Source: Geminocystis herdmanii PCC 6308
GTDB taxonomy: Bacteria > Cyanobacteriota > Cyanobacteriia > Cyanobacteriales > Cyanobacteriaceae
Direction: 5' to 3'
NCBI RefSeq assembly: GCF_000332235.1
Contig: NZ_CM001775.1
Coordinates: 1,370,382 to 1,434,381, forward strand
Length of the DNA: 64,000 nt
In this document: positions 1 to 4,198 of the stretch, piece by piece
How positions within the stretch are numbered: the first letter of the stretch is position 1
Layout of the letters: each line of letters starts with the position of its first letter
The notes under the pieces: generated by a model
What the model saw: only the letters and a program-made list of their open reading frames with translations
Told to the model about the DNA's origin: nothing
Database searches by the model: none
Made by a program: the position numbers and the translations under genes

Positions 1-272
1 ATGATTTCTTGCCAATTTGTAACCATTTTGACTTCCACTAAAATCCCTTGATTTCCTTGACTACAAGACCAAGTTTTCATTTGATCTGTATTATTTGGTA
101 AATCATCCACATCTGCTGGAATTATGGTAGGAATCTGCGAGGGTGTTTGAGCTTTAAGGGGATTTAAGATTAAATTACCCCATACAACGCTTAATAACAT
201 AGCAATTCCTAAATGACGGCTATCGATCGTGAAAAGGCGCTGCGCGATCGTAAATACTTTTAAATTCATCAT
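1..272 (-). CDS. Secreted protein of unknown function, N-terminal part only
   Basis: An open frame on the minus strand starts at ATG 272 (or the adjacent ATG at 269) and runs off the left edge of the window without a stop, giving about 90 residues. The N-terminus contains a hydrophobic stretch (GIAMLLSVVWGNLIL) followed by LKAQ-T, which looks like a signal peptide, so the product is probably exported. The rest is polar (ADVDDLPNNTDQ, then WSCSQGNQG) and I recognise no family. It lies 16 bases after the DUF2808 gene and is probably the last visible member of the operon that begins at 2973. A HIP1-related repeat (221-252) is translated as part of its N-terminus. Another possible start is ATG 200, just inside the hydrophobic segment and downstream of the repeat. 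Confidence 0.6.
   Translation of the reverse strand, partial: MMNLKVFTIAQRLFTIDSRHLGIAMLLSVVWGNLILNPLKAQTPSQIPTIIPADVDDLPNNTDQMKTWSCSQGNQGILVEVKMVTNWQEI
221..252 (-). repeat. HIP1-related interspersed repeat, copy A
   Basis: The minus-strand sequence contains CGATCGCGCAGCGCC followed a few bases later by CACGATCGAT. About 29 of 32 bases match copy B at 2988-3019, and the 14-base core recurs as a tandem array at 53917-53978. This copy lies inside the coding region of the partial secreted protein and is read as IAQRLFTID. Confidence 0.65.
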
Positions 273-288
273 CCAAATATTTTTCCAA

Positions 289-849
289 CTAAAACAATCT
301 ATAAAAGCTAAATCTTCCTACTCCCATAGGTAAACCAGTGGCATTATTTCCCGCAGGAAAAGCGGTTACGCTATAGAGATAAGTGTCATCATCGGGAGGA
401 TTTCGGAAGGCTTCAAGACGAATGCTAAAAGTTGTTCCGGGGGGTACTGGAGGATCAAAAACCACCGTTACCGCCTGAGTTTGGGGATCTTGAGTCGTTT
501 TAATGGTAAGAGGTTTACCTATATTTCCTTGAGTACCGATAAAAGCATAAGTACTTGATATATCTATGGGAATAACATTAACGTTTTGTTGTTGTTGAAT
601 AGTTACTTTTCCTAAAGATTCGATCGAATTATTAGGTAGGTGAAAGGTGAAATAATAATGAGCATTGGGCCAGTTGATGGTAGAGTCAGGAGTTTGTGCT
701 CCAACAAAAACGGGAGGTTGCCCAGTGAAAAAATTAGGATTATCAATCTGTTGGGCATAAGTAGATGGACTAAAAAAAATACCACTTGTACTTAATAAAA
801 AAGGTGAAATCAGTTTAACTATTTTCATAGATTTGATCTTTTTAATCAT
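289..849 (-). CDS. DUF2808 family secreted protein
   Basis: The 186-residue protein has an N-terminal signal peptide (basic MIKKIKSMK, hydrophobic core, cleavage near TYAQQ). The mature part, with NWPNAHYYFTFHLP, a strand-rich middle and a C-terminal PMGVGRFSFYRLF, matches my recollection of DUF2808, a family largely confined to cyanobacteria and of unknown biochemical role. Export to the periplasm or outer envelope is likely. ATG 849 is preferred to the TTG one codon upstream. It lies between the small membrane protein (9-base gap) and the partial secreted protein (16-base gap), so it is probably translated from the FGE-headed operon. No enzymatic motif is visible. Confidence 0.75.
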   Translation of the reverse strand: MIKKIKSMKIVKLISPFLLSTSGIFFSPSTYAQQIDNPNFFTGQPPVFVGAQTPDSTINWPNAHYYFTFHLPNNSIESLGKVTIQQQQNVNVIPIDISSTYAFIGTQGNIGKPLTIKTTQDPQTQAVTVVFDPPVPPGTTFSIRLEAFRNPPDDDTYLYSVTAFPAGNNATGLPMGVGRFSFYRLF

Positions 850-857
850 CAATGACC

Positions 858-1358
858 TTATGTTAGTTCAGAATTTTTTTTAGCGAAAAATAATTTAGTC
901 AAGTTTCCTTTACCTAAATAATTATCAATTTCTTGGAAAATATTATGAATTAAAAAAATCATTGAGACACATAAAGTTACTGCTAAAAAATGAGAGAAAT
1001 GACGGGTTTCTAAAAATAGTTCGATCGCCCCTCCAATGGCTTTAGTTTCCTTATAGGCATGGAAAAGATTTTCAATCAAAGAAATAACTAAAACGGCAAA
1101 ATTATAAAGAAAAGTTTTATACAAGACATTTATATAACGGGGGGAATGAGCATAACGATTTAAGATCGGAGTCATGTCCATAATTGCCACTGCTTTAGCC
1201 GCTACTAATGCACTAATAATTACTTTAGAAAAAACATAAGTATTAATCTCATATTGCTCTAATAAAAGTTTCATCATGACTAAAATAAAGCCAAATCCTA
1301 TCATAAAAAAAAGGGACAAAGAGCCAATTTTTTTGAATTCTTCTTTAAGTTTTTCCAT
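858..1358 (-). CDS. Small integral membrane protein, unknown family
   Basis: This 166-residue protein has about four hydrophobic segments: roughly residues 12-33 (LSLFFMIGFGFILVMM), 42-60 (VFSKVIISALVAAKAVAIMD), 82-100 (FLYNFAVLVISLIENLF) and 128-146 (FLAVTLCVSMIFLIHNIF). It ends in a lysine-rich tail, suggesting an inner-membrane protein with a cytoplasmic C-terminus. I do not recognise the family. ATG 1358 is chosen over TTG 1367. It is third in a tight minus-strand series, 40 bases after the exported glycine-rich protein and 8 bases before the DUF2808 gene, so co-transcription is likely. A scaffold or transport role for the exported neighbours would be speculation. Confidence 0.6.
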   Translation of the reverse strand: MEKLKEEFKKIGSLSLFFMIGFGFILVMMKLLLEQYEINTYVFSKVIISALVAAKAVAIMDMTPILNRYAHSPRYINVLYKTFLYNFAVLVISLIENLFHAYKETKAIGGAIELFLETRHFSHFLAVTLCVSMIFLIHNIFQEIDNYLGKGNLTKLFFAKKNSELT

Positions 1359-1398
1359 TATTAGCAATAGTTCTTTTTATTTGTAAATTTATTTATTC

Positions 1399-1971
1399 TT
1401 ATCTTAAGGGGCCACCATAACCTCCGTAAACACCGACTCCACGAGTACCAACTCCTACCCCATGAAAACCGGGGCCAACTCCTCCTCCAGCACCAATCCA
1501 GTCAATAAATAAGGCACTTTGACCTCCTGTTTTGGGCATTGTACCTTCGATTACTTTATAGTTATAAACGATGTCTTTACCATCAATAACAGGGTTACTA
1601 ATTTCGATTACTACAAGACTATTTTGAGGTTGTCCTTTTTCATAAACGGAAAGAGTAGCATTGGGAGGATCATTTGTGAAATTGTCTGAACCTGCACTAG
1701 CAGTCCATTCTTTCATATATTCAGGGGTAGTAACATGACCTGCTAAACGGACAGGGCGATCGGCAAAATACAGAGTTTGGGGATTAACGTTAACTAGGCG
1801 AATAGTTTTGTTATCAGTTTTTATGTCATCGGCGGTGTGAACAAACATTAATTGTACTTTTTGTTCTTCCGTTTTTTGTTGTTGGGCTTTGACGGAGGAG
1901 AAAGTAGCCGTCACGGAAATAACAGATACTGCTAAAGCTGAAATAGCGAAAAATTGGCGTATTTTGATCAT
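1399..1971 (-). CDS. Exported protein with glycine-rich C-terminal tail
   Basis: The 190-residue product has a clear signal peptide (MIKIRQFFAISALAVSVISV, cleavage near VKAQQ). The body includes QTLYFADRP, EYMKEWTA, DPPNATLSVY and ALFIDWIG. The tail is almost pure glycine with interspersed V, Y and H (GAGGGVGPGFHGVGVG and following). The body resembles a conserved exported family that I believe is also found in proteobacteria, but I cannot name it and assign no function. It lies 36 bases downstream of the FGE-like gene on the same strand, so the two are probably co-expressed. The low-complexity tail could promote aggregation or surface association, which is inference. Confidence 0.6.
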   Translation of the reverse strand: MIKIRQFFAISALAVSVISVTATFSSVKAQQQKTEEQKVQLMFVHTADDIKTDNKTIRLVNVNPQTLYFADRPVRLAGHVTTPEYMKEWTASAGSDNFTNDPPNATLSVYEKGQPQNSLVVIEISNPVIDGKDIVYNYKVIEGTMPKTGGQSALFIDWIGAGGGVGPGFHGVGVGTRGVGVYGGYGGPLR

Positions 1972-2007
1972 GGAATTACTCCTAAATTTGTTAATAAAGT
2001 TTTTAAT

Positions 2008-2973
2008 TTATGGTGCAGATGTGACTAAACGAAACCCGATATGAGATGTACCTGTATCAGCAGATTCTGCCTCCCTTGCCGATGGACGAAAACGACTACA
2101 ATAATTTTTGGCACATAAATAAGAACCACCTTTGATAACGTGCTTTACTACACTCGGATCACGGGGATCAAAACTTTCTTTTTCGTTACTGACAATAGGA
2201 TTAACTTGATGAGATTTACTGTCATGACCATAATGATAATAGTCTTGAGTCCATTCCCACACATTCCCTGTCATGTCATATAAGCCGTAACCGTTGGGGG
2301 AAAAAGAGCCGACTGGAGCAGTACCAAAATAACCGTCTTCTTGGGTATTTTTCACGGGAAATTCTCCCTGCCATGTGTTGGCTTTTTGGGGATTATAAGT
2401 ATTACCCCACGCAAAAATTTTGTCTTTTAAGCCTCCCCTTGCGGCAAATTCCCATTCTGCTTCTGTTGGTAAAGATTTTCCTGCCCATTTTCCATAGGCG
2501 ATCGCATCATCATAGGCAACATGGACAACGGGATGATTTTCTTTTCCTTCAATACTGCTATTTTTTCCTTGAGGATGTCGCCAATTTGCTCCTTGTACCC
2601 AATGCCACCAACTTAACTCTTGAAAAGGTTGCCCTTCAGGAATGGGTTGAAACACCACTGAACCGGGCGATCGATCTTCCTCTGTTAAATCAGGAAATTG
2701 TGTCACCGATAAAGGACGTTCGGCGATGGTAATATAACCCGTAGCCTCCACAAACTTGGCAAATTGTTGGTTAGTCACTTCGTAATTATCTATACAAAAG
2801 TCTTTGACGGTAACGGATTGAGTTGGTTTTTCTTCGGGAAATTCATTATTTGCACCGATGGTAAAAGTACCTCCATGAATTTTTGTCATACCAGTTGAAC
2901 AAGCGAAAACTGAGGGAATAAAGACGAAAAAAAGAACAGAAACTATTGCTAAGATTAGAAAAACATTTTTCAT
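2008..2973 (-). CDS. Formylglycine-generating enzyme (SUMF1/FGE) family protein, exported
   Basis: The 321-residue protein has the FGE-sulfatase fold signatures in order: GGTFTIGANN near residue 34, NYEVTNQQFAKFV near 62, LPTEAEWEFAARGG near 168, DMTGNVWEWTQDYY near 232 and GGSYLCAKNYCSRFR near 282, ending in GFRLV. It keeps the cysteine pair of true FGE (Cys287 and Cys292, spaced like human C336/C341), which oxidises a sulfatase active-site Cys or Ser context to formylglycine. A hydrophobic leader ending in SVFAC suggests export or lipoprotein anchoring. It is the first gene of a five-gene minus-strand run and diverges from an AraC regulator. No sulfatase is visible in the window, so the substrate is unknown; other SUMF1-domain functions remain possible. 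Confidence 0.85.
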   Translation of the reverse strand: MKNVFLILAIVSVLFFVFIPSVFACSTGMTKIHGGTFTIGANNEFPEEKPTQSVTVKDFCIDNYEVTNQQFAKFVEATGYITIAERPLSVTQFPDLTEEDRSPGSVVFQPIPEGQPFQELSWWHWVQGANWRHPQGKNSSIEGKENHPVVHVAYDDAIAYGKWAGKSLPTEAEWEFAARGGLKDKIFAWGNTYNPQKANTWQGEFPVKNTQEDGYFGTAPVGSFSPNGYGLYDMTGNVWEWTQDYYHYGHDSKSHQVNPIVSNEKESFDPRDPSVVKHVIKGGSYLCAKNYCSRFRPSAREAESADTGTSHIGFRLVTSAP

Positions 2974-2987
2974 CTTCAGAAGATAAG

Positions 2988-3019
2988 CTCGATCGCGCAG
3001 CGCCGTTTCACGATCGATG
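2988..3019 (+). repeat. HIP1-related interspersed repeat, copy B
   Basis: CGATCGCGCAGCGCC, seven bases, then GATCGAT. It matches copy A (221-252, opposite strand) at about 29 of 32 positions. It lies between the divergent FGE and AraC genes, within the region likely to hold their promoters. Confidence 0.65.
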
Positions 3020-3187
3020 ATTTTATTTAAAAGAAATTAATTTACTTAAGTATCAGCAAAGTATAAATATTTGTGGAAAATCTTTTCTTGCCATTTCGTG
3101 CCAATCTATAATTAAAATATCCGTAAATACTCTGAGATTGTTTTCTGCTTTAACCTGCTCACCATTGTTAATTTTTGTTAATTATTT

Positions 3188-4198
3188 ATGACGAATTATG
3201 TACCTCTTTTACGAGTTTCTGCTTTAATTCCTTTTGTGAATTTTTTGTACAAATTAGGCACTCCCACGGAAAAACTATTGAGGCAATGTAAATTACCTAT
3301 TTTTGCTTTGGATGAACCAAATTTATTAATCCCTCGCCATCAAGTTTTTGATTTTTTGAAGAAAGCTGCATCTCAAGAAGGAATCGAAAATTTAGGGCTT
3401 TTAGTAGGGGAAAAAACTCCTGTAGAATCTTTAGGTATTTTAGGTAAATTAACTTGTCAATCTCTAACTTTATACGATGCCATTTTTAAAGCTATTTATT
3501 TGGGAAATTTGTTTAATTCAGGAGAACATTTCTGGTTATTAGAAGATAAAGAAACCGCTTATTTTTGTCAAGAACATAATTACTTAGAACCTTTGGAGTC
3601 TCATCATTCCAGTCATTTCTCTTTAATGTTAATGATGGATTTAATTCGTAAAGTGGCAGGAAAAACATGGTATCCACAGCAAATTACTCTACAAACTCAA
3701 TGCCTTAATTTTAAAAATCATTATTTACAAAAAGTTTTTATCAATAAAAATATTAATATAACTTCGATCGCATTTCCTCGATCGTTTTTAGCGTTACCTT
3801 TTCCGAAGGAGTTTAATTTATGTGAAGATCAAAAACATCAAGAATATGAAAAACTACATCAATCTGCTCCTTCTTCTCAATTTTCTCACTCTTTGACACA
3901 GGCGATCGCATCTCAATTAAAAGAAGGTTATCCATCTATTAATTTAGCCTCAGAAATTGCTAAAATGCCCATTCGTAGTTTACAAAGAAAATTAGCAAAA
4001 GATGGTTTAACTTATTCTCAATTAGTGAATCGTATTCGTTATGAAAAAGCTGTTTATTTCTTAGAAAATTCTTCTTTAAAAATTATTGACATCGCCTACG
4101 AATTAGGTTATGCTGATCCAGCTCATTTTACTCGTGCGTTCAAACGTTGGACAGGCATAAGTCCTCATAATTTTCGTTGTCATAAACTTGACAAATAA
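3188..4198 (+). CDS. AraC family transcriptional regulator (OruR/ArgR-like domain layout)
   Basis: The 336-residue protein has an N-terminal half (about 20-205) of the arabinose-binding-like type found in OruR-type regulators, and a C-terminal double helix-turn-helix (about 240-332). The second helix region carries the strongly conserved AraC signature IIDIAYELGYADPAHFTRAF followed by WTGISPHNFR. Such proteins bind a small ligand and activate nearby promoters. It diverges from the FGE cluster across 214 bases containing a HIP1-related repeat, so it most likely controls that cluster. The ligand cannot be read from sequence. ATG 3188 gives full family length. Confidence 0.85.
   Translation: MTNYVPLLRVSALIPFVNFLYKLGTPTEKLLRQCKLPIFALDEPNLLIPRHQVFDFLKKAASQEGIENLGLLVGEKTPVESLGILGKLTCQSLTLYDAIFKAIYLGNLFNSGEHFWLLEDKETAYFCQEHNYLEPLESHHSSHFSLMLMMDLIRKVAGKTWYPQQITLQTQCLNFKNHYLQKVFINKNINITSIAFPRSFLALPFPKEFNLCEDQKHQEYEKLHQSAPSSQFSHSLTQAIASQLKEGYPSINLASEIAKMPIRSLQRKLAKDGLTYSQLVNRIRYEKAVYFLENSSLKIIDIAYELGYADPAHFTRAFKRWTGISPHNFRCHKLDK

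Follow-up and report, generated by a model that had tools for sequence, protein, structure and literature searches.

A formylglycine-generating enzyme of Geminocystis herdmanii as the probable activator of an adjoining cysteine-type sulfatase, and a putative exported FGE clade in cyanobacteria

Introduction

Known formylglycine-generating enzymes (FGEs) convert a cysteine to formylglycine in a copper- and oxygen-dependent reaction, and the textbook bacterial sulfatase activator works inside the cell. The family PF03781 also spans functions other than FGE. Structures have been solved for FGEs that we take to be those of T. curvata (6s07), human (2aii and 1y1e) and S. coelicolor (2q17). The accessible part of one report places FGE in the cytosol of prokaryotes and in the ER of eukaryotes (PMC4505483). 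According to the accessible text of a review, cysteine-type sulfatases are typically cytosolic, and the conversion carried out by FGE is also performed by anSME (PMC3920027); the latter (TIGR03942) is a radical-SAM enzyme unrelated to FGE. For cyanobacteria, the openly available part of a metagenome study predicts signal peptides for sulfatases of cyanobacterial MAGs, and describes one cyanobacterial MAG that encodes a sulfatase and an FGE as well as a glycosyl hydrolase (PMC9723792). A paper on sulfur starvation and arylsulfatase names, in its accessible part, arylsulfatase for Chlamydomonas (PMC2491639). A literature search covering mainly openly available papers found no account of a bacterial FGE that is exported, and no statement on FGE location was found in the accessible part of PMC10154612.

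Here we describe an FGE gene of Geminocystis herdmanii PCC 6308. Its product resembles the aerobic FGEs of the SUMF1 family (6s07, 2aii/1y1e and 2q17) in the whole catalytic domain and in the active-site cysteine pair with its surroundings, and the gene resembles theirs in adjoining a CxPxR sulfatase. A leader is common to the human enzyme and the Geminocystis FGE; in this feature, judged by hydropathy, the latter departs from the prokaryotic FGE as described in the accessible part of PMC4505483, which is cytosolic and leaderless. A further difference is a cysteine pair, Cys25/Cys60, which is absent from the solved FGE sequences that we aligned and differs from the human FGE disulfides listed in the accessible part of the same report. 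The unusual point is that both the FGE and the sulfatase look exported.

Results

The analysed DNA, here called the window, is a stretch of 64,000 nucleotides (genome positions 1370382-1434381) from a 4.26-Mb genome that consists of a single contig. The relevant genes lie at its left edge and just beyond it:

1..272, minus strand: exported 164-aa protein with no family, cut by the window edge (ORF 3-272; whole gene L003 10159-10653)
289..852, minus strand: DUF2808 protein, 187 aa, with a leader (PF10989, E 1.9e-40)
858..1367, minus strand: small membrane protein, 169 aa, no family over the cut-off
1399..1971, minus strand: glycine-rich exported protein, 190 aa, no family
2008..2973, minus strand: FGE, 321 aa (PF03781), with leader, Cys25/Cys60 and active-site Cys287/Cys292
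3188..4198, plus strand: divergent AraC-type regulator, 336 aa (PF12833, PF12625), 214 bases from the FGE start
L003 7584-10142 (genome 1367584-1370142), minus strand: sulfatase, 852 aa (PF00884), with leader and CSPTR, wholly outside the window

The open reading frame list and the profile matches bear out the FGE, glycine-rich, DUF2808, edge-cut and AraC genes named in an earlier sequence-only reading of this DNA. What it called a four-helix membrane protein is a membrane protein in which a scan at a window length of 19 residues picks out three clear hydrophobic segments. The same reading reported that there was no sulfatase, which is true of the window only, because the window edge cuts the row before the sulfatase gene. 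The next complete gene on the same strand encodes a sulfatase; it lies 239 bases outside the left end of the window and 16 bases past the edge-cut gene, where one of the two options offered in that reading had placed it. It is the sixth gene of a same-strand row in which the intergenic gaps, counted from the FGE, are 36, 31, 5, 16 and 16 bases. A normal sulfatase gene following immediately had been named as the result that would make this an ordinary sulfatase operon, and such a gene does follow, save for four small genes in between. We infer that the row from FGE to sulfatase would form a single transcript. Promoter and terminator scans showed no excess over shuffled sequences (57 against 54.6 and 9 against 9.8). 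Past the sulfatase lie a second glycine-rich copy (L003 6808-7440), a pilin-like protein (PF16734) and a DUF1254/DUF1214 protein, and further beyond a family-less exported protein, a long protein that matches no family convincingly, and a solute-binding protein.

The FGE matches PF03781 over the full-length domain (E 8.3e-80, profile positions 3-254 of 255). It has exactly four cysteines (25, 60, 287 and 292), and the active-site pattern GG[ST]xxCxxxxC is present with Cys287/Cys292. This true-FGE pair, already recognised from the letters alone, sits in GGSYLCAKNYC, aligns with the cysteine pair of the solved FGEs, and is invariant together with its surroundings among 16 relatives. Solved chains that bear the name FGE or that of sulfatase modifying factor 1 match at E 3.4e-67 or better, and a near-identical chain among the best matches bears another name (5nxl); SUMF2 follows at E 1.4e-53 and the remaining solved chains at 2.6e-32 or worse. 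A structure model from 16 sequences had a mean pLDDT of 40 and was left unused. The same genome holds three further PF03781 matches, two of which were examined and have no such cysteine pair, in keeping with the alternative that the protein studied here has the FGE fold without FGE activity. We regard this as very improbable, given that the active-site pair is kept, that the top matches among solved structures are FGEs, followed by a sharp drop, and that the pair occurs in 114 of 115 FGE relatives (including those among the matches listed), the exception being a fragment. The pair was found in none of 21 PF03781 loci examined, out of 52 PF03781 matches in seven FGE-less genomes, and both positive controls showed it. 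Judged by its sequence, the predicted product is a genuine sulfatase-activating enzyme.

The sulfatase covers the full PF00884 profile (1-301, E 9.3e-56), and its closest solved relatives are the arylsulfatase entries 4cxk (E 2.4e-57 over residues 95-623) and 1hdh (E 5.6e-57), the latter identified in the accessible text of PMC3920027 as the Pseudomonas aeruginosa arylsulfatase. From that enzyme (1hdh/4cxk) the cyanobacterial protein differs by its leader and about 230 extra C-terminal residues. The C/S-x-P-x-R motif is present (SLCSPTRAALITG, CSPTR), and its cysteine, Cys142, is the sole cysteine in the 852-aa protein. Elsewhere in the genome PF00884 gives a single further match, which is weak (E 6.7e-7) and whose translated product carries no C/S-x-P/A-x-R motif. 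Matches to anSME in this genome lie far below the TIGR03942 cut-off (156 of 349 bits). The sulfatase with its CSPTR is the predicted FGE substrate. The second option of the earlier reading was that the FGE modifies another exported, non-sulfatase substrate, and four small exported or membrane proteins with no assigned function do stand between FGE and sulfatase. However, among the 12 row proteins tested the motif occurs in the sulfatase alone, no FGE target motif was found in window frames longer than 150 aa, and the glycine-rich and membrane proteins are absent from most FGE genomes, which the sulfatase is not. On the motif scan of row proteins and window frames this option was rejected, and we consider it scarcely credible.

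The distribution of the two genes was assessed across 148 genomes from the order Cyanobacteriales, whose shared ancestry means that the counts are not independent. The FGE query matched 38 of the 148 at 1e-20; 31 hold a true FGE (best E 1e-94 or lower), and seven, with a best match between 1e-20 and 1e-26, were counted as having other PF03781 proteins. The sulfatase query matched 34 of the 148 (E<=1e-20), including 27 of the 31 FGE genomes. The remaining four (G017, G024, G114 and G127) carry a diverged sulfatase frame inside the FGE locus; in G127 this frame is a motif-less 231-aa piece near a contig end. For a wider view, 34 of 37 strong cyanobacterial FGE places were examined and joined by 81 FGEs from the best 80 of the matches listed; in the resulting set of 115, two cyanobacterial records are counted twice and the named loci lean towards near relatives. 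A Cys-type sulfatase was present in the examined locus for 76 of the 115 and was not found in the examined stretch for 39, several of them at contig ends (both counts include the matches listed).

Seven genomes matched the sulfatase query and not the FGE query (G006, G094, G112, G128, G129, G139 and G140), and all seven of their sulfatases are leaderless. In G139 and G140 the contig that carries the sulfatase also encodes an anSME scoring above the curated cut-off, at a distance of about 9 kb in G139 and about 0.2 kb in G140. These two sulfatases, on G139:C305 (L070, L075) and G140:C103 (L069, L076), are related leaderless CAPTR proteins with anSME in place of FGE, and the sulfatase activator seems to have been swapped there. 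The other five are leaderless CxPxR sulfatases (L074 in G006, L072 in G094, L073 in G128, L068 in G112 and L071 in G129) from genomes in which no FGE match at 1e-20 and no anSME over the cut-off was found; G006 gave no anSME match, and G112 and G129 scored 150 and 165 of the 349 bits. In the congener G133 (G133:C88, L038, and G133:C75) there are several sulfatase pieces, some with internal stops or short frames, as if they were decaying copies. A second, diverged sulfatase type, in which the motif reads CTAGR (A for P), occurs near FGE genes of the cyanobacterial clade described below:

CTAGR sulfatases: L035 12558-14000; L036 1949-3469; L041 3286-5109; L056 4198-5769; L058 8878-10551; L063 2618-4420

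One cyanobacterial family of shorter FGE-like proteins (L240-L245, frames of 290-312 aa) keeps the cysteine pair (GGSFLCA[DE]NYC) and matches the model only partially.

The small neighbours were rejected as constant components of the system because they are rare: of the 148 genomes, 7 have the glycine-rich family, 13 the DUF1254 family and 15 the membrane protein, and some of these genomes have no FGE. The second glycine-rich copy lies near the DUF1254/DUF1214 gene (L003 4712-6136), an arrangement listed also for G083, G117 and G041, and G117 and G041 have neither an FGE nor a sulfatase match. The two genes may form a separate module; nothing linking DUF1254 with sulfatase was found in the literature.

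Export was evaluated by hydropathy with mechanically set starts. Residues 1-24 of the FGE form a hydrophobic leader, which supports the earlier impression that the enzyme may itself be exported. Most of the leader's differences among three congeners are at first and third codon positions, and they look like coding changes. In the 34 cyanobacterial places, all 27 leader-bearing FGEs have the Cys25/Cys60 pair, and the 7 leaderless ones have neither feature. The enlarged set, which includes the matches listed, contains 35 cyanobacterial FGEs with leader and pair and 10 with neither; among the matches listed from other phyla, 20 of 70 have a leader, 50 of 70 do not, and the pair occurs in 0 of 70. 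In this sample the pair is thus a feature of cyanobacterial sequences alone among the matches listed. Cys25 follows directly after the leader in the genus studied here, as it would in a lipoprotein. This reading was rejected, as the residue lies well downstream in other members (such as L048, L051, L052 and L058); because it is far from the hydrophobic stretch there, a Cys25-Cys60 disulfide fits better. In a tree of 114 FGE rows, built with the leaders excluded and including the matches listed, the 34 rows of the cyanobacterial exported class form one clade with support 100/100, and a single branch (100/98) sets apart a leaderless group of 57 rows. The exported FGEs of other phyla require five changes on this tree, including a mainly Bacteroidota group, so predicted FGE export is not unique to cyanobacteria.

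We then compared the predicted compartments of FGEs and their nearest sulfatases at a lenient (1.6) and a strictest (2.0) leader threshold. Beside exported cyanobacterial FGEs the sulfatase is exported in 26/27 loci at 1.6 and 22/27 at 2.0, and beside leaderless ones in 1/5 at both; L047 and L049 are the cyanobacterial exceptions at 1.6. In other phyla, among the matches listed, the figures are 7/7 and 6/7 for exported FGEs, and 17/30 and 4/30 for leaderless ones. Few cysteines are a general trait of exported proteins. When cysteines are counted starting 60 residues ahead of the motif, a single one is found in 20 of 30 exported and 0 of 13 leaderless cyanobacterial sulfatases, and in 12 of 27 exported and 1 of 17 leaderless sulfatases from other phyla (among the matches listed).

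These data bear on where the FGE acts. In one scenario a cytoplasmic FGE acts before the sulfatase is exported, and its hydrophobic stretch either serves as an anchor that faces inward or precedes the true start. Characterised prokaryotic FGEs are described as cytosolic in the accessible part of PMC4505483, and because leaderless FGEs of other phyla adjoin exported sulfatases in 17/30 loci at the lenient threshold (among the matches listed), activation prior to export is probably common. For the cyanobacterial enzymes, however, the leader is kept in 27/27 together with a cysteine pair that leaderless FGEs do not have, its changes between congeners resemble coding changes, and the neighbouring sulfatases are exported in 26/27. 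The scenario touches the export part only, its odds overlapping with those of the main reading, and we hold it possible though rather unlikely. We think it somewhat more plausible that FGE and sulfatase both cross the membrane and that the conversion takes place there after translocation, in an ER-like manner, with Cys25-Cys60 as a structural disulfide.

Discussion

Our findings make it very probable that this FGE gene is the activator of a cysteine-type sulfatase operon. The enzyme would turn Cys142, the cysteine of CSPTR in the sulfatase whose gene lies five genes further downstream, into formylglycine, presumably in a copper- and oxygen-dependent reaction like that of known FGEs. Once activated, the sulfatase is predicted to work outside the cytoplasm and free sulfate from organic sulfate esters, and the divergent AraC regulator would control the operon. 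The question of an orphan FGE is hereby closed, and a substrate of another kind is not needed.

On balance we favour, with reasonable but limited confidence, an ER-like extracytoplasmic formylglycine pathway in cyanobacteria, in which a single clade of exported FGEs with its own Cys25-Cys60 disulfide meets mostly single-cysteine sulfatases after export and draws both copper and oxygen from the periplasm of a cell that itself produces oxygen. Leaderless sulfatases would use a leaderless FGE, anSME or an unrecognised activator. If the export inference is true, a bacterial FGE working in the reducing cytosol is not a general rule, and cyanobacteria would serve as a bacterial model for the reaction in the ER and supply exportable FGEs for use in aldehyde tagging. 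For the organism itself, the operon predicts a supply of sulfate from organic esters or a remodelling of sulfated envelope polymers.
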